In this document: positions 30,597 through 54,721 of the stretch, piece after piece | How positions within the stretch are numbered: position 1 is the stretch's first letter | How the letters are laid out: each line of letters starts with the position of its first letter | From: Clostridia bacterium | GTDB taxonomy: Bacteria; Bacillota; Clostridia; Oscillospirales; Acutalibacteraceae | Length of the DNA: 64,000 bases | Reading direction: 5' to 3' | Assembly: GCA_017461625.1 (NCBI GenBank) | Contig: JAFTXJ010000005.1 | Coordinates: forward strand, 16,405-80,404 | The notes under the pieces: model-generated | Told to the model about the DNA's origin: nothing | Seen by the model: the letters and a program-made list of their open reading frames with translations, nothing else | Databases searched by the model: none | Program-made: the position numbers and the translations under genes

Positions 30597-33500
30597 TTAA
30601 AATCCGAATAAACTCATCTGTGCACTTTCAGGCAGTCCCTTCAAGGCACCTGCATTTCTCAGAGTTTCTATAACAGATTTACTTACACCGGCACGTTGCT
30701 GAAGCTCTTCAATTGAGGCGAACTCACCCTGACCGTCATTTTTAGCTTCAGCAAGGGCCTTGGCTGCACTTTCGCCTGTACCCGCCATCGACAAAAACGG
30801 CAAACGGATTTTTCCGTCTTCAATTTTATAAACAGTAGCCTCTGATTTGTAAATATCCACAGGTAAGAATTCAACACCTCTCACCATCATTTCATTTACA
30901 ACCTGCATGGCAACATACATATTTTCTTCTTTAGCTGTGGCTTCGTTACCTTTGGCTTTAATTTCATTCATAACAGCCTTAACAGCCTGCCTGCCGTTCA
31001 TAATTGCCACAGTATCAAGGTCTTCACCTCGAACAGTCATATACGTTGCATAGTATTCTTTGGGATAATAAATTTTATACCACGCAAGACGCATTGCGGC
31101 AATAACATAAGCAGCTGCATGAGCTTTGGGGAACATGTATTTAATCTTCATACAAGAATCTATATACCATTGCGGCACACCGTGGTCTTTCATTGCTTTA
31201 AAATGAACCTCGGTAAGAAGCTTGGTGGCATTACCCTTACGGACTATTTCCATAATTTTAAATGCCATATCAGGCTCAAGACCTTTATGCATAAGGTAAA
31301 CCATAATGCTGTCACGAGTACCGATAACATCAGAAATTGTACAGGTTCCGTCTTTAATCAAATCCTGTGCATTACCCAGCCAAACGTCAGTACCGTGAGA
31401 AAGGCCTGAAATCTGAAGCATATCCGAAAAATTCTTCGGTTGAGCGTCAATAAGCATCTGGCGAACAAACGGTGTTCCCAATTCAGGGAGTGAAAGCGTT
31501 CCTGTTTCACAGTCAATGTCTTCACAAGTTACACCCAATGGTTCGGGAGAAGTGAGAAGCTGATAAACCTTGGGGTCGCACACATCAGCATCCATAACAG
31601 AAATTCCCGTAGCATCTTCAAGATGCTTATAAATTGTGGGCACATCATGACCCAGGTTATCAAGTTTCAAAATCGTATCATGCAAAGCGTGGAAGTCAAA
31701 GTGAGTGGTACGAAGACCTTTATCAGCATCGTCTGCCGGATGCTGAATGGGAGTAAAATCCTCCGCCTCCATATCACCGGGAACAACAACCATTCCTCCC
31801 GGGTGCTGACCGGTTGTGCGTTTAACACCTACACAACCGCGGGTAAGCCTGTCTTCTTCTGCACGGTGAAGCGTTTTCCCTTTATCGTCGAGCCATTTTT
31901 TAACAAAGCCGTAAGCAGTTTTGTCGGCAAGGGTACCTATTGTGCCCGCTTTGAACGTGTGAGTTATACCAAAAAGAGTTTCAGTATAACGGTGAGCATA
32001 GAATTGGTATTCACCGCTGAAGTTAAGGTCGATATCGGGCTGTTTGTCGCCTTTGAATCCGAGGAAAGTTTCAAAAGGAATATCGTGACCTTCTCTGATC
32101 ATAAGCACATCACAAGTGGGGCAATTTTTGGGTGGAAGGTCAAAACCTGAACCAACACTACCATCGTTAAAAAATTCACTGTGCTTACACTTGGGGCAAA
32201 CATAGTGCGGCGGTAACGGGTTAACCTCAGAAATACCTGCTGCGTGAGCTACAAACGAAGAACCAACACTTCCTCGTGAGCCAACATAATAGCCATGCTC
32301 TTCAGAGTTGTGAACAAGCTTTTGAGCAATCATATAAAGCACGCCGAAACCGTTGGATATAATTGATTTTAGCTCTTTTTCAAGGCGGTTACTTATAAGC
32401 TCGGGCAATGGGTCTCCGTACTGTTCTTTTGTTCTTCGCCAGCAGATTTCAGTAAGTTCTTCATCTGCTCCCTCAATTGACGGAGGAAAAGTTCCGTAAG
32501 GAATAGGACGGATTCTTTCACACATATCTGCAATTTTATTGGGATTGGTGATAACAACTTCTTTGGCTGTTTCTTCACCGAGATACGCAAATTCATCAAG
32601 CATCTCCTGAGTGGTGCGAAGGAATAGAGGTGCTTGCTGTGAAGCATCTTGGAATCCCTGACCGGCCATAAGAATTTCACGAAAAATCGCATCACCTTTG
32701 TCAAGAAAATGAACGTCACCTGTTGCCACAACAGGTTTGCCTAATTTGTCGGCAATTGCAATAATTTTGCGATTTATATTTTCAATATCGGCAACAGAAG
32801 TGATGTCAGAATATTCTTCACGCTGACTTCTTATCATAAACTCATTATTGCCGTTTGGCTGAATTTCAAGGTAATCATAAAATTCAGCAATTTCCATTAT
32901 TCTTTCTTCACTCTCGCCAAAAACAATGGCTCGGTAAAGTTCACCTGCTTCACAGGCACTGCCAACAAGAATACCCTCACGATGCTCTATCAACATACTT
33001 TTTGGTATTCTCGGTCGTCTTTTGTAAAACTGCAAATTGGATGCAGTAATCAATTTATAAAGATTTTTAAGACCAACGTTGTTTTTAGCAATTAAAATTT
33101 GGTGGTATGTATTTTTGATTTCTTTTGGGTCAACACCTTCTTCTTTGGTGTCGTCTACAAAGTAGCCCTCCATACCGTAGAGGATTTTAATACCTGCTTT
33201 ATCTGCAGTATTCATTGCCTCGGGAAAAGCCTGAACAACACCGTGGTCGGTTATGGCTATTGCCTTGTGCCCCCACTTTGCTGCACGGCTGACCAGATCT
33301 TTGGCACTTGTCATACCGTCCATTGATGACATATTTGTATGCAGATGAAGCTCAACACGCTTTTCGGGAGCATCATCTTTTCTTGTTTCAATTTTTTCAA
33401 TAAGAGTAACTGCTTTTGTATCAATTACATAACAGCGCATATAAGGGTCATGAGTAACAAAACCACGCAAAAGCACAGTTACTCCGTCTTTAACTTTTTC

Positions 33501-34346
33501 TATCAGCTCTTTACAAACTGCTTTTTCACCAAAAATCTTGGCTGAATAAGATGAGGTGTAGTCGGTAAAATTGAATGAAATTATGTTCTTTTTTCCGTCT
33601 CGGGTTTCTCTTGAGTCAAAGCCGAACACATCACCCCACACAACAACGGTGCCGTCTTCGGGAGTAACCTCGGCAATTGGCTTCGGTTTTACTTTAATAA
33701 GATTTCCCAAAACAGGCTTTGCATTTGAAAGAGAAATCGGCAAATCATCAAAGGTTTTTTCGCTCGGTTTTTTGGGTACATCTGACTTTGGCTTTTCAAC
33801 AGGCAGTTTCACCTTTGAGGCTTCCTGCTGTTGCAATTGTTCAAGAGCTTTCTTTTCATCAAACTCTCCGCCTTCAGCAGAGGATTCAATGTGAACATTT
33901 ACTGCTTTTGAAAACTTCTGGCGAACGGTTTTGACAATGTACTCTTCAACACCTAACTGTTTTAAGATGTCCTTACCGTTACGTTTTAAAACTATTTTTA
34001 TATTGTCATTTGTTATAATATATTCTGCATTTTCAAGGAATGAATTACCCGCACTGAAAGTATCTTTTATATCATTAGCAAGCACCGGTAAAAAATCTTC
34101 ACTAAAAAGCTCAGGTTCAAAATAATACTCTGCCTTAATATCACTAAGGTTCATAAATGCCTTTATTTGTGAAAGTGCAGCATCAAATTCCTTTTTATAA
34201 ATAAAGCGACTGAACCGTACAACCATCGAGATTGTACGGTTTTCGAGGGTTGCATTGATTGTGGCAACCTGTGCATCTTCAAATTTTGCATACAAATTTT
34301 TATCAAGGCACTCTGAAAAGAGCGATAAAAATTTAACGTCCTGCAT
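30597..34346 (-). CDS. polC: DNA polymerase III alpha subunit PolC lacking the inserted 3'-5' exonuclease
   Basis: 1249 residues against about 1430 for typical PolC. Domain order: N-terminal region (1-230), OB fold (about 235-325, VVWGDVFGFDSRETRDGKK), PHP (H334-L-H336, AITDHGVVQAFPEA), then PolC-type polymerase with GSRGSVGSSF, PHYVCPKCKHSEFF, PDIDLNFSGEY, KRTTGQHPGG, GLSHGTDVWLGNAQ and MFPKAHAAAY. In standard PolC a DnaQ-type exonuclease of roughly 185 residues interrupts PHP right after the 'YG+E....DD' segment. Here GMEGYFVDDT is joined to YHQILIAKNN by about 15 residues (397-414), and no DxETTG motif exists anywhere in the protein. All polymerase motifs are intact, so it should be the main replicase but without intrinsic proofreading. 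It is the last gene of the pyrH-polC operon. Confidence 0.96.
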   Translation of the reverse strand: MQDVKFLSLFSECLDKNLYAKFEDAQVATINATLENRTISMVVRFSRFIYKKEFDAALSQIKAFMNLSDIKAEYYFEPELFSEDFLPVLANDIKDTFSAGNSFLENAEYIITNDNIKIVLKRNGKDILKQLGVEEYIVKTVRQKFSKAVNVHIESSAEGGEFDEKKALEQLQQQEASKVKLPVEKPKSDVPKKPSEKTFDDLPISLSNAKPVLGNLIKVKPKPIAEVTPEDGTVVVWGDVFGFDSRETRDGKKNIISFNFTDYTSSYSAKIFGEKAVCKELIEKVKDGVTVLLRGFVTHDPYMRCYVIDTKAVTLIEKIETRKDDAPEKRVELHLHTNMSSMDGMTSAKDLVSRAAKWGHKAIAITDHGVVQAFPEAMNTADKAGIKILYGMEGYFVDDTKEEGVDPKEIKNTYHQILIAKNNVGLKNLYKLITASNLQFYKRRPRIPKSMLIEHREGILVGSACEAGELYRAIVFGESEERIMEIAEFYDYLEIQPNGNNEFMIRSQREEYSDITSVADIENINRKIIAIADKLGKPVVATGDVHFLDKGDAIFREILMAGQGFQDASQQAPLFLRTTQEMLDEFAYLGEETAKEVVITNPNKIADMCERIRPIPYGTFPPSIEGADEELTEICWRRTKEQYGDPLPELISNRLEKELKSIISNGFGVLYMIAQKLVHNSEEHGYYVGSRGSVGSSFVAHAAGISEVNPLPPHYVCPKCKHSEFFNDGSVGSGFDLPPKNCPTCDVLMIREGHDIPFETFLGFKGDKQPDIDLNFSGEYQFYAHRYTETLFGITHTFKAGTIGTLADKTAYGFVKKWLDDKGKTLHRAEEDRLTRGCVGVKRTTGQHPGGMVVVPGDMEAEDFTPIQHPADDADKGLRTTHFDFHALHDTILKLDNLGHDVPTIYKHLEDATGISVMDADVCDPKVYQLLTSPEPLGVTCEDIDCETGTLSLPELGTPFVRQMLIDAQPKNFSDMLQISGLSHGTDVWLGNAQDLIKDGTCTISDVIGTRDSIMVYLMHKGLEPDMAFKIMEIVRKGNATKLLTEVHFKAMKDHGVPQWYIDSCMKIKYMFPKAHAAAYVIAAMRLAWYKIYYPKEYYATYMTVRGEDLDTVAIMNGRQAVKAVMNEIKAKGNEATAKEENMYVAMQVVNEMMVRGVEFLPVDIYKSEATVYKIEDGKIRLPFLSMAGTGESAAKALAEAKNDGQGEFASIEELQQRAGVSKSVIETLRNAGALKGLPESAQMSLFGF

Positions 34347-34359
34347 AATCTTTCCTCTT

Positions 34360-35409
34360 TTATAACTTATCTATTTCTTCAAGAAGTGCTGAAACAATTT
34401 CACTTTCAGGCACCTTCCTTAAAATTTCTCCCTTTTTAAAAAGCATTCCGCAACCGTCACCACCTGCAACACCGATGTCAGCTTCTTTGGCTTCACCCGG
34501 TCCGTTAACAATACAGCCCATAACCGCAACCTTTATGGGTTTTTCACATTTTTCAAGAGCTGACTCAACCTGATTTGCAAGACTAATCAAGTCAATTTTT
34601 GTTCTGCCGCATGTGGGACAAGCCACTATCTGCACAGCATTCTTTTTAAGACCGATTGCTTTTAAAATATCGTATCCTGCTGAAATCTCTTTAACAGGGT
34701 CATCAGTGAGGGAGACACGGATTGTATCGCCGATTCCCTTAAGAAGAAGAGAACCGATACCAACGCTTGATTTGACAATGCCCATTCGAGAAGTGCCTGC
34801 TTCGGTAACACCGAGGTGCAACGGATAATCACATTTTTCACTTGCAAGGGTATAGGCATTAACCATATTTTCAACATCAGATGATTTGATTGAAATTACA
34901 ATATCATCAAAGTCAAATTTATTAAGTAGTGATGCGTGATACATTGCACTTTCGACCAATGCTTCGGGCGTAGGTGCACCGTATTTTGCAAGAATTTCTT
35001 TTTCAACAGAGCCTGAATTTACACCGATTCTGATTGGGATATTCTTTTGCTTACATATATCGGCAACAGCTTTAACTCTGTCATCTGAGCCGATATTGCC
35101 GGGGTTTATACGGATTTTATCAACGCCTGCCTCGGCACATTCGATAGCCAAACGGTAATCAAAATGAATGTCTGCAACCACAGGGATTGACAAATTTTCT
35201 TTAAGTGCCGCAATAAGCTTAACTGCATTTTTATCGGGAACGGCACTTCTTATAATCTGACAGCCGGCATTCTGCAGTTCAAGAGCCTGCTTCACACCTG
35301 CTTCAATATCTTCCGCAGGCTTATTGAGCATTGACTGAACACTGATGGGTGCACCGCCACCTATTAAAACGTTACCGACTTTAACCTGTCTTGTGATTTT
35401 TCTTTCCAT
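34360..35409 (-). CDS. ispG: 4-hydroxy-3-methylbut-2-en-1-yl diphosphate synthase (flavodoxin)
   Basis: 349 residues, normal bacterial length. It has the TIM-barrel start VGGVPIGGG-like 'VLIGGGAPISVQSM', a Cys pair in CPTCGRT and a third Cys in MGCIVNGPGEAKEADIG for the 4Fe-4S cluster. It catalyses the penultimate MEP-pathway step. It is 13 bp upstream of polC and 3 bp after rseP, in the same operon as dxr, the second MEP enzyme here. Confidence 0.97.
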   Translation of the reverse strand: MERKITRQVKVGNVLIGGGAPISVQSMLNKPAEDIEAGVKQALELQNAGCQIIRSAVPDKNAVKLIAALKENLSIPVVADIHFDYRLAIECAEAGVDKIRINPGNIGSDDRVKAVADICKQKNIPIRIGVNSGSVEKEILAKYGAPTPEALVESAMYHASLLNKFDFDDIVISIKSSDVENMVNAYTLASEKCDYPLHLGVTEAGTSRMGIVKSSVGIGSLLLKGIGDTIRVSLTDDPVKEISAGYDILKAIGLKKNAVQIVACPTCGRTKIDLISLANQVESALEKCEKPIKVAVMGCIVNGPGEAKEADIGVAGGDGCGMLFKKGEILRKVPESEIVSALLEEIDKL

Positions 35410-35412
35410 AAT

Positions 35413-36492
35413 TTAACCACCTGTCACCAAAACCCAGATATCTTTAAAGCAGATAAACACCATAAATGTGAGAAGCAATGCCATACCCACACCATGAATA
35501 ATTGCTTCATATTTTGGGTTAATGGGTTTTCTTAAAATAAGCTCAATAAACAAGAACAACAGTCTGCCACCGTCAAGGGCGGGGATGGGTAAAAGATTAA
35601 ATAATCCGATATTGATTGTGATTAAAGCCATCATTCTGAAAAGTGCTGTGTAATCTGCCGCTTCTTTTGAAGCTTCAGCTGTTTGTGAAACAACATCAAC
35701 CACACCAATAGGACCAGACACATCTTTAATGGAATATTTGCCCGTTATCATATCAAAAAGACTTAAATAGACCATTCTGCACACAGAAATTGATTGCTTG
35801 AAAGTATCTTTAAAAATAGTGCCCGGAGTTGTTTCAACACCAACGATTATGAGATTTTTTAAAACATCGGTGCTGATTGACTCAACGGCAACACTTTCAC
35901 CCTCACGCTCAACTATAGCAGAAAACTTTCCGTCACCATCAAAATCCCTTGAAGCTAAATAATAAATATCTTCGTAATAAAAAACATTTTTGCCGTCAAT
36001 TTTTTTGAATTTATCGCCTGATTTGAGACCCTCATACTCTTTAATCTGCTTAATTTCTTTACTCTCGGCAGAAACGGGAACATTGAAATAATTTACATAA
36101 TTTGTTGCCGACAGTTCATCACTGTTTACCGCAAGAATGCAACCGATGATTATCAGGCCCAACAAAATATTGATAATTGCACCGGCAGCCACAATAATTA
36201 TCCTCTGCCAACAAGGCTTGTTGCTGAAAGCGTGTTCATCGTCACTTTTTTCATCTTCGCCCTCCATACTGACAAAGCCGCCTATGGGAAGCAGACGCCA
36301 CGAATAAGTTGTGTCGCCTTTTTTGCGACTGATAAGCTTAGGACCCATACCCATTGAAAATTCATTCACCTTAACCTTAAAAAACTTGGCAAATGAAAAA
36401 TGGCCGAATTCATGAAACATTATAATAATGCCAAAAAAGAGAATTGCAACAAGTATTGTCCATTTACTTGCAATCCATGAGAGAATTTCCAA
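35413..36492 (-). CDS. rseP: RIP site-2 metalloprotease RseP/RasP
   Basis: 359 residues with four or so membrane segments. The zinc motif H27-E-F-G-H31 lies in the first one, a PDZ domain spans about 120-215, and the C-terminal motif NLLPIPALDGGRL supplies the third zinc ligand (Asp). This intramembrane protease clears signal-peptide remnants and cleaves anti-sigma factors. Position between dxr and ispG is the common Firmicutes arrangement. Confidence 0.96.
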   Translation of the reverse strand: MEILSWIASKWTILVAILFFGIIIMFHEFGHFSFAKFFKVKVNEFSMGMGPKLISRKKGDTTYSWRLLPIGGFVSMEGEDEKSDDEHAFSNKPCWQRIIIVAAGAIINILLGLIIIGCILAVNSDELSATNYVNYFNVPVSAESKEIKQIKEYEGLKSGDKFKKIDGKNVFYYEDIYYLASRDFDGDGKFSAIVEREGESVAVESISTDVLKNLIIVGVETTPGTIFKDTFKQSISVCRMVYLSLFDMITGKYSIKDVSGPIGVVDVVSQTAEASKEAADYTALFRMMALITINIGLFNLLPIPALDGGRLLFLFIELILRKPINPKYEAIIHGVGMALLLTFMVFICFKDIWVLVTGG

Positions 36493-36543: not shown

Positions 36544-37686
36544 TTATATCCTGCTTAAAACATAATTTCTTGCCCATTTATCTGTTTCATTAACATCTTG
36601 GAGAGAGTAGTCATCTTTGCTTTGTGCATTAGCAACAGCTTCACCTACAAGCTCTTCGATCTGTAAGAATTTTATTTTACCCTGACGAAAAGCAAGATTT
36701 GCAGCTTCATTGGCTGAATTTGCCACTGCAGGATAAAGTCCACCTTTTCCTATAGCCTCGCGGCAGATATTTATACAACCGAAGGTCTCATAGTCAGGCT
36801 TTTCAAATGTAAGCGTACCATAATCTGTTAAAGAAAGCTGTTTAACGGGTGACACAATACGATTCGGATATGTTAACGCATATTGAATGGGAATACGCAT
36901 ATCCGGCACACCAAGCTGAGCAATAACGGAATTATCACAATATTCAACTAAAGAATGAATAACGCTCTGACGGTGAACCACAATATCAATATCTGCAGGG
37001 TTCATATCAAAAAGCCATACGGCTTCTATAAGCTCAAGACCCTTATTCATCATTGAAGCAGAGTCAATGGTTATTTTTGCACCCATGCTCCAGTTGGGAT
37101 GAGCCAGCGCCTGCTCAACTGTTACACCCTCAAGGTCAGCTCTCTTCCTTCCGAAGAAAGGTCCGCCTGACGCAGTAAGAATAAGACGTTTGATTTCTTT
37201 TTTATCAGCACACCCTTGCAACGACTGAAAAATTGCAGAATGCTCGCTGTCAACCGGTAAAATGTTTACCCTTTTATTTTTTGCATTTTTAGTAACCAAT
37301 GCACCGCCTGCAACTAAAGTTTCTTTATTGGCAAGGGCAATTTCATTACCGGCTTCAATAGCCGCCAGGGTTGGTTCAAGACCTGCCATACCTACAATAC
37401 TGTTTAAAACATAGTCAGCCTTAAGACCTGCACAATAACACACGCCCTCAAGACCCGAAAGCACCTTTGTGGAAGTGTCAGAAACCTTTGTTTTAAGTTC
37501 TTCTGCTGATTTTTCGTCAGCTAAGGCAGCGTATTTCGGCTTGTATTTTCTGATTTGCTGCTCAATAATTTCAACATTACTTCCTGCAGTAAGAGCAAGA
37601 ACTTCATAGCCCTGCAAATCAACAACTTCAAGAGCCTGAGTGCCGATTGAACCTGTTGAACCGAGAATTGTAAGAAGCTTTTTCAC
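36544..37686 (-). CDS. dxr: 1-deoxy-D-xylulose 5-phosphate reductoisomerase
   Basis: 380 residues from GTG 37686 (SD GGAGGTG overlaps the uppS stop). NADPH site GSTGSIGTQ, NKETLVAGG, LPVDSEHSA, SGGPF, HPNWSMGAKITIDSASMMNKG and the EAANLAF closing region are all present. It is the first committed step of the MEP isoprenoid pathway, co-transcribed with ispG and uppS, which feed undecaprenyl phosphate for cell wall. Confidence 0.97.
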   Translation of the reverse strand: MKKLLTILGSTGSIGTQALEVVDLQGYEVLALTAGSNVEIIEQQIRKYKPKYAALADEKSAEELKTKVSDTSTKVLSGLEGVCYCAGLKADYVLNSIVGMAGLEPTLAAIEAGNEIALANKETLVAGGALVTKNAKNKRVNILPVDSEHSAIFQSLQGCADKKEIKRLILTASGGPFFGRKRADLEGVTVEQALAHPNWSMGAKITIDSASMMNKGLELIEAVWLFDMNPADIDIVVHRQSVIHSLVEYCDNSVIAQLGVPDMRIPIQYALTYPNRIVSPVKQLSLTDYGTLTFEKPDYETFGCINICREAIGKGGLYPAVANSANEAANLAFRQGKIKFLQIEELVGEAVANAQSKDDYSLQDVNETDKWARNYVLSRI

Positions 37687-37687
37687 C

Positions 37688-38401
37688 TTACACACCTCCG
37701 AAGCGACGGTTTCGGTTATTATAATCATCAATTGCTTTTTCTAAATCATCAGATGTAAAATCAGGCCAAAGAATGTCTGAAAACCAGAATTCAGAATATG
37801 CTGACTGCCACAAAAGGAAGTTTGAAAGTCTGTATTCACCGCTTGGTCTGATAATTAAATCAGGGTCGGGCTGACCTGCGGTATAAATATTATCTGAAAT
37901 ATCGTCCTCAGTAATATCTTCGGGATTTATCTCACCGTTTTTAACTTTTTGGGCTAATTTTTTAACAGCATCCACTATCTCAAGCCTTCCGCCATAATTG
38001 ATAGCAATATTTACATCAATTTTGGTTGCGTCTTTTGAGTTCTCTTCGGCAGTCTCCATAAGGCTTACTATATCATCAGGCATGTCATCACGTCTGCCGA
38101 TAAAGTGCATACACATACCCTTTTGAATGTTTTCGTTTTCTCTGTCTTCAGCTTCACCGAGATACTCCCTGAAAAGCTCCATAATCGCCGCTACCTCTTC
38201 AGGAGGTCTGCGCCAGTTTTCTGTAGAAAAAGCGTAAAAGGTTATGCTTTCAATTCCGATTTCACAAGCGTAATCACAAATTTTACGAAATACATTGGCA
38301 CCTTCTTTATGACCGTCCCAACGGTTAAGCCCTCTCTGCTTTGCCCAGCGACCGTTGCCGTCCATAATTATGCCAATATGTTTTGGCAGTTTTCTTTCCA
38401 T
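37688..38401 (-). CDS. uppS: Undecaprenyl diphosphate synthase (isoprenyl transferase)
   Basis: 237 residues from ATG 38401 (SD AAAGGAG, 8 bp). The catalytic D14 is in IIMDGNGRWA; FYAFSTENW, NIAINYGGR and DLIIRPSGEYRLSNFL follow, all standard UppS motifs. It makes the lipid carrier for peptidoglycan and exopolysaccharide. The usual next gene cdsA is absent: dxr follows directly. Confidence 0.97.
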   Translation of the reverse strand: MERKLPKHIGIIMDGNGRWAKQRGLNRWDGHKEGANVFRKICDYACEIGIESITFYAFSTENWRRPPEEVAAIMELFREYLGEAEDRENENIQKGMCMHFIGRRDDMPDDIVSLMETAEENSKDATKIDVNIAINYGGRLEIVDAVKKLAQKVKNGEINPEDITEDDISDNIYTAGQPDPDLIIRPSGEYRLSNFLLWQSAYSEFWFSDILWPDFTSDDLEKAIDDYNNRNRRFGGV

Positions 38402-38426
38402 AAAAGCATCTCCTTTTAAAGTATGC

Positions 38427-38447
38427 AAGGGGAGCAATGCTCCCCTT
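38427..38447 (-). other. Intercistronic hairpin between frr and uppS
   Basis: AAGGGGAGC and GCTCCCCTT arms around a 3-nt centre, between the frr stop and the uppS SD. No good T-run follows on the minus strand, so it is more likely an RNA-stability or weak pausing element than a terminator. Confidence 0.5.
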
Positions 38448-38453
38448 TGGCAA

Positions 38454-39008
38454 TCAGATTTCCATAACTTCCTTTTCTTTTGCGGAAGCAATTTTGTCAA
38501 TTTCTTTTATGTTGGTGTCAGTAATTTTCTGGATTTCTTCTTCTCCGTTTTTAAGGTCATCCTCTGTAATTTCAGAAGCCTTCTGCATTTTCTTAAGCTT
38601 ATCCATAGCATCACGACGGATTGAACGAACCGCAACCTTTGAATCTTCAGCCATTTTGCTTACATCTTTAACGATAACTTTTCTGTTTTCTTCTGTAAGC
38701 TTGGGGAAAGTAAGGCGGATAACAACACCGTCATTCTGAGGGTTAATACCGATGTCAGAAGCCTGAATAGCTTTTTCAATTGCATTGAGAACAGATTTAT
38801 CCCAAGGTTGAATTGTAAGAATTCTTGCCTCTGCAACAGAAACTGATGCGAGCTGATTGATAGGAGTAGGGGTGCCGTAATAATCAACAGTTACTTTGTC
38901 AAGCACAGCAGCATTTGCTCTGCCTGCACGGATTGCACCGTAATCTCTTTTAAGTACGTCAATGGTTTTGCCCATTTTTTCTCTGGTATTTGCATAAAGT
39001 TCTTTCAT
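38454..39008 (-). CDS. frr: Ribosome recycling factor
   Basis: 184 residues, standard length. GRANAAVLDKVTVDYYGTPT, LTIQPWDKS, NDGVVIRLTFPKLTEENR and RSIRRDAMDKLK are typical. It splits terminated ribosomes together with EF-G. It lies 26 bp after pyrH, the near-universal partner. Confidence 0.98.
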   Translation of the reverse strand: MKELYANTREKMGKTIDVLKRDYGAIRAGRANAAVLDKVTVDYYGTPTPINQLASVSVAEARILTIQPWDKSVLNAIEKAIQASDIGINPQNDGVVIRLTFPKLTEENRKVIVKDVSKMAEDSKVAVRSIRRDAMDKLKKMQKASEITEDDLKNGEEEIQKITDTNIKEIDKIASAKEKEVMEI

Positions 39009-47378: not shown

Positions 47379-49478
47379 TTAAAACTCAACAATTATAGGC
47401 TCATATTTTTCAATAAGTTCTTTTATAACTTCAATAACATCCTCTTCGCCTATTCCGCTCGGTCTTGGAATATAATCTTTAATCCACTCGTTTTCAGCGT
47501 ATTCAAAGCGTTGTGTCAAAAGAGTTCCTGAAAATTCATTTCTATCATAAGGTCTGCGTTTTGACATATCTTTAAACTTTTTGGGTTTATCAAAATATGA
47601 TGCCATCATTCTGAAGAAAATATACCATCTCTTCAAATATAAATCCTTGACCACTCCGCCCCATTCACGCCAGTTTGTGTCGTAGATAACAGAATTTTTG
47701 ATTGGACCGAAAGTTGTATGATACATCATAAAGTTAACTTCCAGATTCTGAGTGACCTCTTTTGTGTCACCCAACTGCCTTGCAGACTGAATATGCGTGA
47801 ACATATTTGTTTCAGGTACGGTTTTAAGCAATCGGTCAATATCTGACATAATTTCAACAAAGGCATTGGTTGTTTTTTCAAACGGTTCAACGGCTTTGTT
47901 TTTAAAACAAGCCACTGCCTGGCGGTAAATCGGATAAAGAACATTGCTCAACACCTGACGCATAACATCCTGAATATCTTTTCTGAAAAAGTCATTCATT
48001 TTGATATCCGAATCGACCACTGTTTTAATCAATTCAAGTAAATCCTTATTATTATAAGGTAATTCAAAAGTGTCAAACGGAGCAGTGTGTTCAAGCTCAG
48101 TACACGGTCTTGCACAAACAGCAGAAGCAAGATTCAGAACACTGTTCTTGTTATAACATAATGCCTGAAGATTACACAAAAAATCAGTAAAAGCTTCGGT
48201 GCCGTAACGGCATTTAGAATAAGCTGTGAAATATTCTCTCAAATCAACAGCTGTATCGCAAGTGAGCATATCCGCAGCAAGATTATAAAACAGAGAATTG
48301 CAGCCGTCGCTATCAAAAAATAAACCTGTTCCCACTGCATTGTTGAACTGTCCTTTAGCTTTAAGATACGGGTTTTCGCTCAAAGTCTGCATATTACCGC
48401 AAATCACAGTTCGTCCGTTAAGATTACCCTTATATCCCACAACAAAGTCATTGCCGTTAAAGCCATCAGATGAAGCAGCTTTATCCCCTGCTTCATCAAT
48501 TATAACCATGCCTTCAATTCGTTCAGGGTACTGATGCAAAGCATCTGAATGAACAAACCATGTAGCCTCAGGGTCAACACCCTTAATGAGATTAATATAC
48601 ATTGAGATACTTTTTTCAATAAACGAGTTGTACCCCTTAAAATCAACATCTATAAGCGGATCAAACAGATAATTATGCACTTCACCCAGTAGCTCTTTCT
48701 GTTTTTCAAGGAATGCTTTTTGAAAAACAGAAATGTGAACACTGTCGGTTGGTTCAATCGTCATCGCGGGCGGAAACTGATTCCACACCTTTCTTTTAAT
48801 AAGATCGGTCTTTGTATAATTCCTTCTGAAAGAAAATGGAATTGCAGAGATGAAGCCCTGATGAATCGGCGACATTCCTAACTCTTTGGCTCTTTCGGTT
48901 GCTTTTTTTCCAACTTCAATTTTTTTATCAAAATAATCTACACTGTAAATAGGCAAATAACCAAAAAGATTACCTTTTAACTGGTGGTAAAAATACTGAG
49001 AACCTGCAACAAATTCAAGTGCATTCTCTTTTTTGAAACGGAATTCCATAAGTGTCTTATATAAAACTCCGTCAGTGCCTGTTAAAATTATCGGAGCATT
49101 TACACCATGCATGGCCAAAAAGTCAAGCTCTTTCTCCCAACGGTCAAATCCCCAACTGTCAACCTCTGCTGAATAACGTTCATAGGTAAACGCAAGCCTT
49201 AATTTTTGAGGAACAGAGTATGCAATTTTTCTGTCCGGTAGCGGAGCTGTCTTGATATAGGAAATATCATAATTACCGCTTGTTATCAAAACATTACAGT
49301 ATTCTTTAAGATATCTGTAATATCCCATAGCTTTAGCAATTTCATTGCTACCGGCAATTACAATTTGCTTCTCTCTCGAGTATAGCTCATATGTGTCATT
49401 ATTATTTAACTTGTCACAATCTTCAAAGACGAAAAGATCGGCAATTTTAGGGGTATTTCTAAGGACAAATTCAGTCAT
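47379..49478 (-). CDS. GH89-like alpha-N-acetylglucosaminidase homologue with altered catalytic residues
   Basis: 699 residues, no signal peptide. The N-terminal domain precedes a TIM barrel beginning RLAFTYERYSAEVDSWGFDRWEKELDFLAMHGVNAPIILTG, a close match to NAGLU/GH89 ('W+RWE+E+DWMAL+G+N.PL..TG'). Alignment by hand to human NAGLU puts catalytic FNE(E316) on L-I-D277, and PEG(E446) in GTGMAPEGISQN on GTGLFFDSDGCN, i.e. D389. The HNFGGN loop is also replaced (CGNMQTL). So both Glu positions appear to be Asp. The protein may be a GH89 relative with different specificity, or inactive. It is the last gene of the dockerin cluster but itself has no dockerin or export signal. Confidence 0.75.
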   Translation of the reverse strand: MTEFVLRNTPKIADLFVFEDCDKLNNNDTYELYSREKQIVIAGSNEIAKAMGYYRYLKEYCNVLITSGNYDISYIKTAPLPDRKIAYSVPQKLRLAFTYERYSAEVDSWGFDRWEKELDFLAMHGVNAPIILTGTDGVLYKTLMEFRFKKENALEFVAGSQYFYHQLKGNLFGYLPIYSVDYFDKKIEVGKKATERAKELGMSPIHQGFISAIPFSFRRNYTKTDLIKRKVWNQFPPAMTIEPTDSVHISVFQKAFLEKQKELLGEVHNYLFDPLIDVDFKGYNSFIEKSISMYINLIKGVDPEATWFVHSDALHQYPERIEGMVIIDEAGDKAASSDGFNGNDFVVGYKGNLNGRTVICGNMQTLSENPYLKAKGQFNNAVGTGLFFDSDGCNSLFYNLAADMLTCDTAVDLREYFTAYSKCRYGTEAFTDFLCNLQALCYNKNSVLNLASAVCARPCTELEHTAPFDTFELPYNNKDLLELIKTVVDSDIKMNDFFRKDIQDVMRQVLSNVLYPIYRQAVACFKNKAVEPFEKTTNAFVEIMSDIDRLLKTVPETNMFTHIQSARQLGDTKEVTQNLEVNFMMYHTTFGPIKNSVIYDTNWREWGGVVKDLYLKRWYIFFRMMASYFDKPKKFKDMSKRRPYDRNEFSGTLLTQRFEYAENEWIKDYIPRPSGIGEEDVIEVIKELIEKYEPIIVEF

Positions 49479-49494
49479 AAAAGGAGCACTTCCA

Positions 49495-50331
49495 TTAAAT
49501 ATTTAAAATATCGTTTATTGTTCTTATTCCGGCAGAGATCTGTAAAATCGCAAGCCCGTCTGATGAATTGACTTTTCCGTTTGAATCAACGTCTGCAACT
49601 ATAGCCTGATGAGAATCAAGTGATTTAATTCCCGTTGCCATTTGCATAATCAACAACGAATCTGACGAAGTAATACGCTTATCGCTATTCACATCACCTG
49701 AATCGGTAATCTTAAATTTTATTGATGCTTTAGAAAAATCTAAATATATTTCGCTGCCAAAATCATATCTGTTTCCTGCTAAATCACCATTATCTGTGTA
49801 ACAAGCAAAATATGTTGAACCAAATGGGTTGCTTCGATTTCTTATTGTTGATTCATCCAGATAAACCTGAGCAACATCATCACGCTTGCCGTTTGCAACA
49901 AGCTGTATATTAATCAGACATTCATTCAATAGATTTGGTGCCTTAACACAGTCATCTGTTGTCGGAATCATATCGAGCTTTAAAAATGAAATCTCTTCTT
50001 GATACAGTGAAAGATTGCTGTACGATTTGCAAGCTGAGTAAAATCTGCTATATTCATTCCAATCAAAATCATTGTATTCCAAAAAGCTGTCAGTGTAGTG
50101 AATCTCTGCACTCAAAGGACCTGCATAAAAATCTTCATTAGTTTTTAAATTCAACCCAACATCCAACACATCGGTATCATATACATAAATATAATCTTTA
50201 ATGGTTTTAACCTCTGCACCGTTTACAGAAACAGTCAGCGAAAAATCTGCTTCATAACGAGGCTGTGCAATAACTAAAACAGGTATAAAAGCAATGCACA
50301 GAACTAACAAAGCTATCAAAATTTTTTTCAT
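49495..50331 (-). CDS. Secreted cohesin-like/dockerin protein
   Basis: 278 residues. Signal peptide 1-21 (IALLVLCIAFIPVLVIA). Residues about 25-205 form a cohesin-like beta sandwich (DVLDVGLNLKTNEDFYAGPLS; SAEIHYTDSFLEYN). The C-terminal dockerin has two calcium-binding segments, GDVNSDKRITSSD (about 217-229) and ADVDSNGKVNSSD (about 251-263), each with the following helix LLIMQMATG and LAILQISAG. It is separated from the FIVAR gene upstream by a strong terminator (50349-50381) and from the GH89-like gene by only 16 bp. It should be part of a surface protein assembly. Confidence 0.87.
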   Translation of the reverse strand: MKKILIALLVLCIAFIPVLVIAQPRYEADFSLTVSVNGAEVKTIKDYIYVYDTDVLDVGLNLKTNEDFYAGPLSAEIHYTDSFLEYNDFDWNEYSRFYSACKSYSNLSLYQEEISFLKLDMIPTTDDCVKAPNLLNECLINIQLVANGKRDDVAQVYLDESTIRNRSNPFGSTYFACYTDNGDLAGNRYDFGSEIYLDFSKASIKFKITDSGDVNSDKRITSSDSLLIMQMATGIKSLDSHQAIVADVDSNGKVNSSDGLAILQISAGIRTINDILNI

Positions 50332-50348
50332 TGCACAACCTCCTTTTG

Positions 50349-50381
50349 AAAAAAGGGGTCACAGGATGACCCGTGACCCCT
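50349..50381 (-). terminator. Strong intrinsic terminator after the FIVAR protein gene
   Basis: Minus strand AGGGGTCAC / GTGACCCCT (50373-50381 and 50354-50362), followed by TTTTTT. It would reduce transcription into the dockerin gene downstream, whose start is 18 bp beyond. Confidence 0.88.
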
Positions 50382-50411
50382 CGGATAAATTAGCTTAATC
50401 AGTAAATCTGA

Positions 50412-53400
50412 TTATTCAGCAACTACGCCTGTAACAACTACAGATGCATCTGCTGCTTCCCAACCGTCTGCTGTCTTAATGTTAACAGAGATTGTGTTTT
50501 CGCCTTCTGCATAAAGCTTAGCTGCAACTTCAAATGTTACTTTGCCGTCTTCGCCAGCTACGCCGTTGTTATAAGTTGCAATTGCATTGCCGTTAACAAC
50601 TACCTGAACCTTAAGAACGTCAGCACCGGTAACAACTGTTACAGGAACGAATTCACCAACGTTTGCTGATTCAGCACCAGCTGTGATTGACTCTACAGCC
50701 TTATCATCTGTTGAATACTTGTATTCATAGATGTAAGAGAGTGAGAGATCTTCCCAACCGTCGTTGTCTTTAGCGTTTACATAATATGTGCCTGCATTGA
50801 ATGTAGCAGTAACTGTCCAGATTTCGTAAGCGATATCTCTTGAAAGATCGTTTACAACTTCGCCAGCTGCATTGTAGCTAACGATTGAGCCAGCAGCTCT
50901 TGCTGCTTCTCTTGTGAATGTAACTGTAAGATCGTTGTTGTTAACGTCTACGAAACGAACCTTATTAGGTCTGCCTGTTACCTTGATTGTGAAGGTGTTA
51001 GCTGCATAAGGAGCATCTGTTGATGTTGTCTCCTGAACATAACCTTCTGTTGGCTTAAGCTGAAGAGCTGCAAGAGCTGCTTCTATAGCTGCTGCCATAG
51101 CATCAACTTCTGCCTGAGCAGAAATCTTCTTGCCTTCAACAACCTGTGATACTGCATAGTCAACATCTGCAAGTGATGCTGCTGTGTAGAGAGCTCTGTT
51201 GAGAGCCTCAACCTTAGTAAGAGCTGCGTCAACTGCTGTGTAGTCAGCGTCTTTCTCAACAAGGCCTGTAACTGCTGTGTTGATAGCTACTGCCATAGCG
51301 TCAACATCTGCCTGCTTTGTTTCGCCAAGGCCGTAAACAACTGCTGCAACAGCATCGTTAACTGCCTTAACTGAATCGTCTGTGTAGATTGAAAGGTCAG
51401 CAGGAACTGAAGCCTTAGCAGCCTCAACTGCTTCGTAGTTAGCAAGAGCTTCAAGAGCTGCTACTGCATCTTCAATAGCCTTAGCCATTGCGTCAACATC
51501 AGCCTGTTCTGTCTTAAGCTTGCCTTCAACTACTGCTGCAACTGCATCTTCAACTGCTTTAGCTGAATCTGCTGTATAACCTGAAAGGTCAGCAGGAACT
51601 GATTCCTTAGCTGCTACAACTGCTGAGTAATCAGCAGGAGCAACTGTAAGAGCTGCCTTAGCTGCTACAAGAGCATCTGTAGCTGCGTCAACTGCATCCT
51701 GAGTTGCGTTAGCGTCTGCATCAACATCGTTAGCTGTTGCAAGAGCTGTTGCATATGCATCCCAGTTTGAATACATAACAGCATCAAGTTCGGGAACGTC
51801 TGCGATAGCTGCTTTAAGAGCTGCCTTATCAGCAACTGCTGCAAGAGAATCGATAGCTGCCTGAAGAGCATCTGCTGCTGCGTCAAGAGCTGCCTGATCC
51901 TTAGCTGCTACTGCTGAATCATAAGCTGACTCAGCTGCTGCTTTAGCTGTTTCATAAGCTGAAACAGAAGCAGGTGTATAACCTGAAAGGTCTGCAGGAA
52001 TGTTAGCTACTGCTGCATTCCACTTAGTGTAGTCAAGAGTTACTTCTTTCTCAAGGCCGTCGATAGCTGCTACGAGTGCATCGTATGCTGCGTTAACCTG
52101 AGCCTGAGCTGAGATAGCTGTTTCATCCTGATCGAATGACTGTGCTGTTGCGATAGCAGTCTGGAGAGCTGCCCAAGAATCTGCTGTGTAACCAGCGTCA
52201 ACGATAGCTGTTGCTTCGTCAAGAGCTGAGTTGAGGTTTGTGAAGTTAGCCTTCTGAGCAAGAGCTGCTACCGCTTCGTTAAGAGCTGTAGCTGCGTTGT
52301 CAAGCTCTGTCTGAGTTGTAGCAGAAGCCTTAACAGATTCTGCTGAAGCAAGAGCAGTTGAAACTGCGTTTGCTGTTGATGTTGTGTAACCTGAAAGATC
52401 AGCAGGAACAGAAGCGATAGCTGCGTTGATGCCGTCATAGTTAAGAACTACTTTTTCTTCAAGGTCTGCAAGAGCTGCTTCAAGAGCTGCTGCTGCTTCG
52501 TCAATAGCTGTCTGCTCTGTAGCTGAAGCCTTAGCTTCTACTGCTGCGTTGTAAGCTGTTGTAGCTGCTGCCCATGTTTCTGTTGTATAAGCGTCAGCGT
52601 CACGGCCTTCATAGTCAGCGATCTGAGCATCGATAGCTGTGTAATCAAGATCTGCTGCATCGCCAGCAACTACGAATGTAAGCTCAGCACCTGTAAGGTC
52701 GAACATTTCGGGACCATATCCTATAGGTGTTTCATAGATGTCACCCATATCATACTCTGCTGAATAGTCAGAAGCTGGAAGGTATGTACCTGAAAGCTTT
52801 GCATAGTTGTATGTGAAGATCTTAGCAGTTGTACCGGGTTGTGCATCTGTTCTTACATATACGGGGAATGTAACGAGGTCGCTGTTCTGAGCAGCTACCA
52901 TTTCAGGATACTCTTCGTTAGCCATAACTGCACTTGGGTCAACACAAGTAAACCATGTGTACTGGTTGTACTGAGCATTCTGAGCATCTGTAAAATCAGA
53001 AGGTGTGTATTCATCACGGAAATCCTGAGTAGCTCTACCGTAGATAACACCACCTGAAAGTGTTGAGTTAGAGTGTTTGTAGATTTCGTTATCTGCATTC
53101 CAAATGTAGGCATTTGTAACTAATGCAGCAACTGTTGTGAACACATTTGTGTCATAGAAAACCTGACCCTGAACAGCATCGGGGTAAACTCCGCCAGTTG
53201 ATTTCATACTTGTTGTAATCCAAATCATCTGACCAGGCTTAACTTCGATTACATCTGATGAATCGTAGTACTCTAATGAGCTACCTGATGATTTGTAAGT
53301 GTTGATGTCTGTTGTCTGCTTGCTGAAAGCAGATGCGCGGATTGTGCCTGGAACTGTGTTGTCGAGATCAAGAGCCTCAGACTGTGCTGCACCGGCTGTA

Positions 53401-53540
53401 TCGTCAACGCCATCCATAACCTGTGCTTTAAGAGTGAGGTAAATCTTCTTGTCGTCTGCTGCGCTTGTTGCGATTACGAATGAACCAACAACCAAAACGA
53501 TTGAGAGAACGATAGCAAGAACTCTTTTTGCAATTCTCAT
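50412..53540 (-). CDS. Large secreted FIVAR-repeat surface protein
   Basis: 1042 residues from ATG 53540. Signal peptide at 1-28 (VLAIVLSIVLVVGSFVIATSA). Residues about 30-300 form an N-terminal beta domain with a cohesin-like look (GQMIWITTSMKSTGGVYP; TFPVYVRTDAQPGTTAKIF). About eight helical FIVAR repeats of 65-70 residues follow (roughly 300-830), many with a 'VPADLSGYT' and 'A.A.Y..A.A.A.....' pattern. Two C-terminal beta-sandwich domains complete it (about 840-1042). No LPxTG motif and no dockerin is visible. FIVAR repeats are usually sugar- or cell-wall-binding stalks. Repeats are very Ala-rich and recent-looking, so copy number may vary between strains. Confidence 0.85.
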   Translation of the reverse strand: MRIAKRVLAIVLSIVLVVGSFVIATSAADDKKIYLTLKAQVMDGVDDTAGAAQSEALDLDNTVPGTIRASAFSKQTTDINTYKSSGSSLEYYDSSDVIEVKPGQMIWITTSMKSTGGVYPDAVQGQVFYDTNVFTTVAALVTNAYIWNADNEIYKHSNSTLSGGVIYGRATQDFRDEYTPSDFTDAQNAQYNQYTWFTCVDPSAVMANEEYPEMVAAQNSDLVTFPVYVRTDAQPGTTAKIFTYNYAKLSGTYLPASDYSAEYDMGDIYETPIGYGPEMFDLTGAELTFVVAGDAADLDYTAIDAQIADYEGRDADAYTTETWAAATTAYNAAVEAKASATEQTAIDEAAAALEAALADLEEKVVLNYDGINAAIASVPADLSGYTTSTANAVSTALASAESVKASATTQTELDNAATALNEAVAALAQKANFTNLNSALDEATAIVDAGYTADSWAALQTAIATAQSFDQDETAISAQAQVNAAYDALVAAIDGLEKEVTLDYTKWNAAVANIPADLSGYTPASVSAYETAKAAAESAYDSAVAAKDQAALDAAADALQAAIDSLAAVADKAALKAAIADVPELDAVMYSNWDAYATALATANDVDADANATQDAVDAATDALVAAKAALTVAPADYSAVVAAKESVPADLSGYTADSAKAVEDAVAAVVEGKLKTEQADVDAMAKAIEDAVAALEALANYEAVEAAKASVPADLSIYTDDSVKAVNDAVAAVVYGLGETKQADVDAMAVAINTAVTGLVEKDADYTAVDAALTKVEALNRALYTAASLADVDYAVSQVVEGKKISAQAEVDAMAAAIEAALAALQLKPTEGYVQETTSTDAPYAANTFTIKVTGRPNKVRFVDVNNNDLTVTFTREAARAAGSIVSYNAAGEVVNDLSRDIAYEIWTVTATFNAGTYYVNAKDNDGWEDLSLSYIYEYKYSTDDKAVESITAGAESANVGEFVPVTVVTGADVLKVQVVVNGNAIATYNNGVAGEDGKVTFEVAAKLYAEGENTISVNIKTADGWEAADASVVVTGVVAE
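51050..52652 (-). repeat. FIVAR repeat array (about 8 units of roughly 200 bp)
   Basis: Protein-level tandem repeats within the surface protein gene. Each unit starts with a short 'Y..+..A' segment and contains a 'ADLSGYT' or 'ADSWAAL' core followed by an Ala-rich helix pair. The units are diverged at DNA level, so this is not a simple tandem DNA repeat. Confidence 0.75.
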
Positions 53541-53597
53541 CTTGGAATTTTCCTCCTTAAAATAAATATATTTCAAAAGCAAAGCTTTGAAACCGTA

Positions 53598-54653
53598 TTA
53601 AAGTGTCTGGTCGATTACTGATGTATTAGAAAGATGACGAGTCATGACTGACATATCACTAATATCAACATCGCCTGACTGGTTTGTATCTAAGGCTGTT
53701 ACAAAAATATCCTCAAGTGTATCAAGATTACCCAAGGTACGTGCTGATACACTAAGGTCAGAAACAGTGATAGAACCATCACCGTCAACATCGCCATAGA
53801 TAAGGATGTAATAATCATCAAGAAGGGCACCGTCTAACCAAACTCTTACCTTAGCACCTGTACCATAAGTACCTGCAGAACCTGTGGAAACAGCGTAAGT
53901 GAGTGTGGCATCGCCGAGAGGCTGAACATTGGCTTTGATTGTAGCCAATGACATTGTGAGACCTGCCCAGTTTTTGATTACTTTGTTATTATAGTCAATA
54001 ATAACCTGTGAACCTGCATAGGTTGTGATACCATCAGATCCGCCGGCATCGATTTCAACATCGAGGCCTTCGAAAGTGAGGGTAGTGTTGATGCGACAAA
54101 TTGTTGTTGCATCAGTTACGTCAGTAACAGCCTGGTTATAGAAAAGGGTTGATTCTGACGGAATAAAGATTGAACCTGTTGTGCCGCCAGCTGTTGATTT
54201 AACCTTCAACTGGAACGAGAAACACTTAACAGACTCTGCACTGTTGAAGCAACCGATATTTGTAGATGTTACAGAGGCAGTCCACTGAACAAGAACACAA
54301 CCGTAAGCTGATGGATCATACTCAACAGGATAGAGAGATTCATCGTTGCTTGTGTTGGCTTCAAGTGAGCCTTTATAAGTGAGACAATCGTCGTAAGCGG
54401 TCAGTTTGACACCTGTTGTGGGAACTTCAAAAACGTCTGCACTATAAAGAACAGGGAAACGCAAGCAAGTTGCGTTATAATCATTTTTAAGGTAAATGTT
54501 AACAGTAACAGTATCACCTGCTGCATAGTTTGTTGAATCAGCAACAACAGTATATGTCATTGAACCATCAACGGCGAAAGCGGAGACAGCAAAAACAGAG
54601 AAAGCAAGAACCACTGCTAAAAAAACAGCTAAAATTCTTTTTGAAGTTTTCAT
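53598..54653 (-). CDS. Secreted cohesin-like protein with C-terminal dockerin
   Basis: 351 residues. Signal peptide 1-27 (ILAVFLAVVLAFSVFAVSAFA). Residues about 30-195 show a cohesin-like pattern (TNYAAGDTVTVNIYLKNDYNATCLRFPVLYSADVFEV). A second beta segment follows (about 200-285). The dockerin is at the C-terminus: GDVDGDGSITVSDLSVSART and DTNQSGDVDISDMSVMTRHL. The dockerin calcium loops are intact (D-x-D/N-x-D/S-G). A hairpin (54682-54707) and strong SD (AGGAGG, 54662-54667) separate it from the 1324-residue gene. Confidence 0.88.
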   Translation of the reverse strand: MKTSKRILAVFLAVVLAFSVFAVSAFAVDGSMTYTVVADSTNYAAGDTVTVNIYLKNDYNATCLRFPVLYSADVFEVPTTGVKLTAYDDCLTYKGSLEANTSNDESLYPVEYDPSAYGCVLVQWTASVTSTNIGCFNSAESVKCFSFQLKVKSTAGGTTGSIFIPSESTLFYNQAVTDVTDATTICRINTTLTFEGLDVEIDAGGSDGITTYAGSQVIIDYNNKVIKNWAGLTMSLATIKANVQPLGDATLTYAVSTGSAGTYGTGAKVRVWLDGALLDDYYILIYGDVDGDGSITVSDLSVSARTLGNLDTLEDIFVTALDTNQSGDVDISDMSVMTRHLSNTSVIDQTL

Positions 54654-54681
54654 CTGTGATACCTCCTATTTTCTTTGGGAT

Positions 54682-54707
54682 ATCCCGGGCGTTTTCACAC
54701 CCGGGAT
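54682..54707. other. GC-rich intercistronic hairpin
   Basis: Palindrome ATCCCGGG / CCCGGGAT with a 10-nt loop between two dockerin genes, without a minus-strand T-run. It may stabilise or process the mRNA. Confidence 0.6.
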
Positions 54708-54721
54708 TTATTAAATTTTAA

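Follow-up and report, generated by a model that had tools for sequence, protein, structure and literature searches.

An exo-less PolC from a genus of gut and rumen Clostridia: recurrent absence of the inserted DnaQ-type exonuclease and retention of the PHP metal site

Background

PolC polymerases without the DnaQ-type proofreading exonuclease (Exo) that canonical PolC carries inside its PHP domain were described in 2013 by Timinskas et al. (PMC3919608). In that survey they made up 6% of the PolC sequences and 16% in systems with PolC and DnaE1, and all came from Clostridia or Negativicutes except for one extra copy in Thermotogae. In this work we analysed such a PolC, encoded in a stretch of 64,000 nt (hereafter the window) from a Clostridia bacterium (contig JAFTXJ010000005.1 of assembly GCA_017461625.1). 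An earlier note on this DNA, made from the sequence alone, had reported the missing exonuclease and had left open whether the clade was already described; the exo-less type is already known. The window PolC is like the enzymes of Timinskas et al. in having no Exo insertion in the PHP domain and probably also in belonging to bacteria with a DnaE1 partner, whereas the count of independent losses, the tally of stand-alone DnaQ proteins and the decayed Exo come from the present analysis.

Two other systems are close to this one. The canonical PolCs of known structure, 3f2b from Geobacillus and 9qpc, share family and domain order with the window PolC and differ from it in having the DnaQ-type domain inside the PHP domain and, in both of these two sequences, an asparagine at the position of its residue D544. 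Both enzymes naturally carry Exo; in the 3f2b structure, the N-terminal domain and Exo are missing (legend in PMC3919608). The DnaE1 of Mycobacterium tuberculosis also has no DEDD exonuclease in cis and has a nine-ligand PHP domain; this domain does its proofreading, at a trinuclear zinc centre held by nine conserved residues (PMC5636811), and serves here as the functional model for PHP proofreading. The enzyme differs in being a DnaE1 and not a PolC, and its PHP exonuclease was demonstrated by experiment, while that of the window PolC is proposed by comparison. PHP domains in bacteria with PolC and DnaE3 are often inactive, and Clostridia mostly have three active proofreaders, namely the PolC PHP, the DnaE1 PHP and the DnaQ in PolC (PMC12926913).

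Results and Discussion

Absence of the exonuclease from the window PolC

The features of the gene that are referred to below are as follows.

30597..34346, minus strand: polC, open reading frame (ORF) with ATG start, 1249 residues, matched by PolC equivalog models
32859..33353, minus strand: PHP domain (Pfam), residues 332-496, uninterrupted
33105..33158, minus strand: exonuclease insertion site of PolCs with Exo (alignments), here a short linker, residues 397-414
30600..30620, minus strand: C-terminus QMSLFGF (read from the sequence), with a clamp-binding-like QMSLF at residues 1243-1247

The identity and length of the protein given in the earlier note were borne out by the ORF and by two NCBIfam models, PRK00448 (1495.9 bits against a cut-off of 873) and TIGR01405 (1352.3 bits against 1043.45). 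A Pfam search at E<=1 returned the PHP domain as a single stretch, DNA_pol3_alpha, the finger domain and HHH_6, but no RNase_T match; the N-terminal PolC domains scored below the Pfam cut-offs (NII 24.4 bits against 26.3, NI 14.1 against 22, OB 14.0 against 27). The mapping of residues 397-414 to the window also proved correct. The spacing from D399 to Y414 is 14 residues, compared with 183-218 residues (median 206) in 68 PolCs with the insert (exo+) and 5-36 residues (median 16) in 66 PolCs without it (exo-). Since there is no RNase_T match and the linker has only 14 residues, the window PolC was filed solely as the exo-less variant, which is defined by an uninterrupted PHP domain and no Exo. 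Alignments with solved structures agree with this: 3f2b gave one aligned stretch (226-1248) beginning ahead of the PHP domain, and the alignment with 9qpc, a PolC of 1474 residues, was broken into two pieces at the exonuclease site, where the 9qpc chain has roughly 190 extra residues. The absence of the exonuclease domain is confirmed.

An assembly or annotation artefact that deleted about 560 bp would give the same picture, and the window's assembly is indeed incomplete (86.6%, 21 contigs). On the other hand, the same junction was found in two separate genomes of the genus, G005 (96% identical) and G009 (94%, one residue changed), which excludes an assembly deletion; other PolCs of the genus likewise have no insert, and the type had been reported from an earlier genome set (PMC3919608). 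The comparison of related genomes that the earlier note had called for thus leaves the artefact a negligible probability.

The PHP metal site

The earlier note had also described the PHP motifs as intact, and all nine metal ligands are in fact present: H334, H336, D343, H368, E393, H415, C465, D544 and H546, the last two lying beyond the stretch matched by Pfam. The set HHDHEHCDH fits the nine-ligand pattern HHDHEH[C/H]DH of replicases that proofread with PHP. The nine ligands are invariant in an alignment of 15 exo- PolCs, and the same set occurs in all 66 exo- sequences of the larger alignment described below. A model of residues 318-718, predicted together with 26 other exo- sequences, had a mean predicted local distance difference test score (pLDDT) of 90. 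The best Protein Data Bank match of this 401-residue model was 3f2b (50% identical), and M. tuberculosis DnaE1 (7pu7 and 5lew) was also among the matches. The PHP nuclease, which the earlier note did not name, would on these ligands be the likeliest candidate for proofreading.

The C-terminal motif resembles the clamp-binding consensus QL[S/D]LF quoted in PMC3919608; its residues Q1243, S1245 and F1247 are invariant in the 15 exo- PolCs, as are many residues of the polymerase part.

Distribution of exo-less PolC

We compared 40 genomes, including the window's own (G000), of which 18 belong to its genus. The short form was found in 17 of the 18, own genome included. In 15 it lies in one frame of 1252-1295 residues (one of them, G001, has one reported stop, with a longest open piece of 1273 residues), and in G007 and G017 it is in two pieces, G007 being scored as exo- from two ORFs. 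No PolC was found in G012, which is 77% complete. Exo-less PolC is thus a stable trait of the genus. Elsewhere in the family both states occur: G020, G021 and G023 are exo-, and G018, G019, G022 and G024 are exo+. Near named loci were mostly from gut or rumen metagenome-assembled genomes labelled Clostridia, Oscillospiraceae or Ruminococcus. Among the sequences compared, the PolCs of two named isolates, Cuneatibacter sp. NSJ-177 and Desulfosporosinus fructosivorans, are exo- as well.

A set of 105 PolC sequences (the window and 104 others, 28 loci coming from the 40 genomes and 76 from 80 named loci) comprised 46 exo- and 59 exo+ members. With 29 sequences added from a class-wide sample, the resulting 134 rows comprised 66 exo- and 68 exo+; L029, L124 and L132, which were split or short, were left out before counting, as were L063 and L113, which we regarded as copies of L014 and L024. 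The class sample held 196 genomes, own included, with 90% completeness requested, and 183 of them gave a PolC match at E<=1e-120. At least 26 of the 183 are exo-, counted among the best 149, those whose matches most resembled the exo- query; the share is 26/183 if all genomes beyond these 149 are exo+. The window and 20 others of the 26 were confirmed by sequence, and the state of G151, G088, G098, G177 and G272 was taken from the match table only.

A tree of the 134 rows was built by FastTree from 977 columns without the insert region. At least 10 changes of exo state are required on it (starred branches alone force 8), compared with 45 on average when the labels were shuffled. One clean recent case is the pair of L064 (exo-) and L075 (exo+), which had full support in the tree of 105 rows. 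The absence of Exo is therefore shown to be recurrent among the Clostridia sampled. The tree itself does not give the direction of change; we read the changes as losses because the insert is at one site and homologous throughout.

Two side observations were made here. No PolC match at E<=1e-120 was found in 13 of the 196 class genomes, five of them in one family (f22, genomes of 0.8-1.1 Mb); these are perhaps DnaE-only Clostridia. In addition, G031, which has a normal polC on its contig C13, carries a second, broken-looking PolC relative (C2:64636-67217, minus strand; frames of 212 and 703 residues, one stop).

A clade with a decayed exonuclease

The five catalytic residues of Exo (D, E, D, H, D) are present in 67 of the 68 exo+ rows. 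The exception is L122, from uncultured Ruminococcus sp. RUG13219.

L122, 5971-10380, plus strand: PolC with an inserted exonuclease whose site is lost

At the catalytic positions L122 has H, D, A, A and G; the other two frames contain stops, and the only RNase_T match in that genome is a stand-alone protein of 182 residues. A search for relatives, in which 14 (L210-L223) of 23 loci were looked at, showed that four further genomes (G291, G292, G293 and G296) share this state, G293 keeping one of the five residues, and that the nine other relatives have all five. In these five species the insert is 182-184 residues long with its DEDDh site destroyed and PHP intact, and the five PolCs (L122 and four others; loci L210-L214) form one clade with a support of 100 in the Shimodaira-Hasegawa-like approximate likelihood ratio test. 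For chosen pairs within the clade, identity is 35-76% in the insert and 84-97% in the core; for chosen pairs of active relatives the values are 61-84% and 77-93%. All five dead inserts were nevertheless recovered by a profile built from the 67 active domains, with E values from 9e-28 to 2e-12 when 20 sequences were searched, and we therefore regard these as decayed homologues. From its sequences the clade may be described as an intermediate in the loss of the exonuclease. No published description of a decayed Exo in PolC was found in the literature searched, which left most subscription journals outside.

Stand-alone DnaQ-like nucleases, DnaE and mismatch repair

The earlier note had suggested that proofreading is supplied in trans. 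A search of the window's own genome for a stand-alone dnaQ came out negative, with no RNase_T match at E<=10 in an assembly that is 86.6% complete (the same search was positive in 13 of 14 control genomes). Among relatives, proteins of at least 71 bits, a line between stronger DnaQ-like and KapD-like proteins that was drawn after seeing the tables and that the exo+ genome G072 just misses (70.7 bits, 206 residues), occurred in 5 of 21 exo- genomes (own included, and G025 placed as exo-) and 5 of 16 exo+ genomes of the set of 40, G012, G028 and G033 being left out for want of a usable PolC. For the named loci, 48 of which (out of 80) entered the tally, the figures were 13 of 27 and 6 of 21. Combined, this gives 18/48 exo- against 11/37 exo+, with same-clade genomes not independent and the named-locus genomes of unstated completeness. 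Five of nine exo- relatives at least 90% complete had no DnaQ-like protein of this strength, and four of the 27 exo- named-locus genomes (G040, G063, G071 and G086) had no RNase_T match at all. Stand-alone DnaQ-like nucleases are thus shown not to accompany loss of Exo systematically, and as a general answer the suggestion is not supported. We also rejected the idea that they are escaped PolC exonucleases. When 25 stand-alone proteins were placed in one tree with 34 of the 68 PolC exonucleases (alternate rows), 24 of them lay apart from the PolC branch; the exception, a 170-residue open piece from G042 on a long branch, is doubtful.

DnaE with the set HHDHEHCDH was present in all 13 relatives examined (10 exo-, 3 exo+); in the 10 exo- relatives its PHP is intact as in DnaE1, to which it is likened by PHP state alone. 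No second C-family polymerase was found in the window's own assembly, 86.6% complete as it is, and the 10-kb DnaE locus of the sister G005 gave no match there, in a search without positive control whose empty result shows little. A real loss of DnaE was not accepted, because the incomplete assembly lacks the sister's locus in its entirety; the absence is most likely an assembly gap. The mismatch repair gene mutS1 was found in all 40 genomes, above the cut-off in 39.

How the loss may be tolerated

We consider it rather probable that the window PolC is the ordinary replicative enzyme of a genus of gut and rumen Clostridia, inherited vertically, and that in this genus an ancestral loss of Exo was tolerated through redundant PHP proofreading and mismatch repair. 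The ancestor of the genus would have lost the inserted DnaQ-type exonuclease in one of the at least 10 changes among the Clostridia sampled, and this would have been tolerated because proofreading is redundant in bacteria with PolC and DnaE1: each polymerase would retain a complete PHP metal site, the type of site by which mycobacterial DnaE1 proofreads, with mismatch repair staying in place alongside. A DnaQ site no longer needed may then decay in place, as the five-species clade suggests, or be excised, with a short loop left behind in PHP. Most likely, then, the PHP nucleases of PolC and DnaE1 would do the proofreading, backed by mismatch repair, and from the comparison with M. tuberculosis DnaE1 we infer that the PHP domain of the window PolC actually proofreads. 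In favour of this, the two solved PolCs, which carry Exo by nature, have N in place of ligand D544, although two sequences are a small sample. We give about an even chance to the broader proposal that in Clostridia with PolC and DnaE1 the proofreader protected by selection would be PHP, with DnaQ dispensable and repeatedly lost by excision or decay.

Three results weigh against this explanation. The complete ligand set is also present in 67 of the 68 exo+ rows (the remaining sequence is truncated at the first position). Its retention is therefore not specific to exo- PolCs and is no proof of a takeover by PHP; for the same reason PHP state was rejected as a discriminator within Clostridia. Measured against the polymerase part, PHP is only marginally more conserved in exo- PolCs (0.977) than in exo+ PolCs (0.949). 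Lastly, the ten stand-alone DnaQs with the highest scores (>=112 bits) are mostly from exo- genomes, eight (G015, G017, G025, G042, G079, G081, G085 and G087) against two from exo+ genomes (G031 and G066).

If proofreading is done in trans by a separate DEDDh nuclease, the candidate that these genomes share is a KapD/ERI1-like exonuclease of roughly 300 residues with a C-terminal zinc ribbon. An RNase_T protein with an open frame of 287-351 residues occurs in 16 of the 18 genomes of the genus (not in G000 and G011), its D-E, D and H-D residues are present by eye, and when nine loci were compared with the G005 one, eight gave matches (27-60% identity), of which seven extended over nearly the full length. 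The protein was also found in all three exo+ relatives checked (G018, G019 and G024; 38-43% identical), and therefore its presence does not track the loss of Exo and it was rejected as a genus-specific replacement. It was not found in the window's own incomplete assembly, and its best NCBIfam match, KapD, reached 79 bits, under the cut-off of 169. Together with the similar shares of stronger DnaQs and the four exo- genomes without any RNase_T match, this makes proofreading in trans unlikely. We hold it similarly improbable that DnaE1 does the bulk of replication, so that PolC has a restricted role, a question raised in PMC3919608, and its fidelity matters little. In its favour, all 13 relatives examined have a full-length DnaE whose PHP is intact, and 13 class genomes seem to be free of PolC; the invariance of the C-terminal clamp-like motif and of many polymerase residues in the 15 exo- PolCs, and the usual neighbourhood of polC, speak against it.

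A simple loss of replicative proofreading, with a lineage living at the raised mutation rate that the earlier note had offered as its other possibility, is in our judgement very unlikely. It has in its favour that laboratory strains of Bacillus subtilis become hypermutators with a proofreading-deficient polC allele (PMC11890065). Gut Clostridia, however, do without the domain in entire groups, the loss persists across whole genera and mutS is kept. Branch lengths gave mixed results: exo- PolCs had longer branches than exo+ in three of five comparisons and shorter ones in two, including the window's genus (0.316 against 0.409 in exo+ sisters). This test is weak, as it used the PolC protein only and some rows were not sisters or stood alone on their side; it gives a mutator no clear support.

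A conserved protein of the KapD/ERI1-like kind, a DEDDh exonuclease of roughly 300 residues with a zinc-ribbon-like C-terminal part, is encoded at L057:1438-2307 and in relatives.

Implications

The finding is real and ordinary in type, with a useful extension. Exo-less PolCs permit a direct test of PHP proofreading, which in the literature searched was shown only for other replicases. They also bear on sequence collection. A study of ibezapolstat, a drug directed at PolC, in Lachnospiraceae and Oscillospiraceae required an RNase_T domain within PHP for a protein to count as PolC, and 620 of 1,158 candidate sequences were kept (PMC11963600). Such a rule would leave out every exo-less PolC; the sequences dropped will include DnaE and others.

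Gene neighbourhood and other features of the window

The genes upstream of polC are as follows.

34360..35409, minus strand: ispG, directly upstream of polC (NCBIfam TIGR00612 and PRK00366 above cut-off)
35413..36492, minus strand: rseP, in the same gene string as polC (TIGR00054 above cut-off)
36544-37731: ispC-like ORF between rseP and uppS, recognized by eye only
37688-38500: uppS, after rseP (TIGR00055 above cut-off)

The usual neighbour of polC is ispG; as it lies directly upstream here, polC is in its usual neighbourhood. A block on the minus strand at 47379-58696 looks like a glycan-degrading set. It encodes an alpha-N-acetylglucosaminidase (NAGLU, 699 residues), two dockerin-bearing proteins (49495-50331 and 53598-54653) and proteins of 1056 and 1324 residues whose sole match was FIVAR, under the cut-off.

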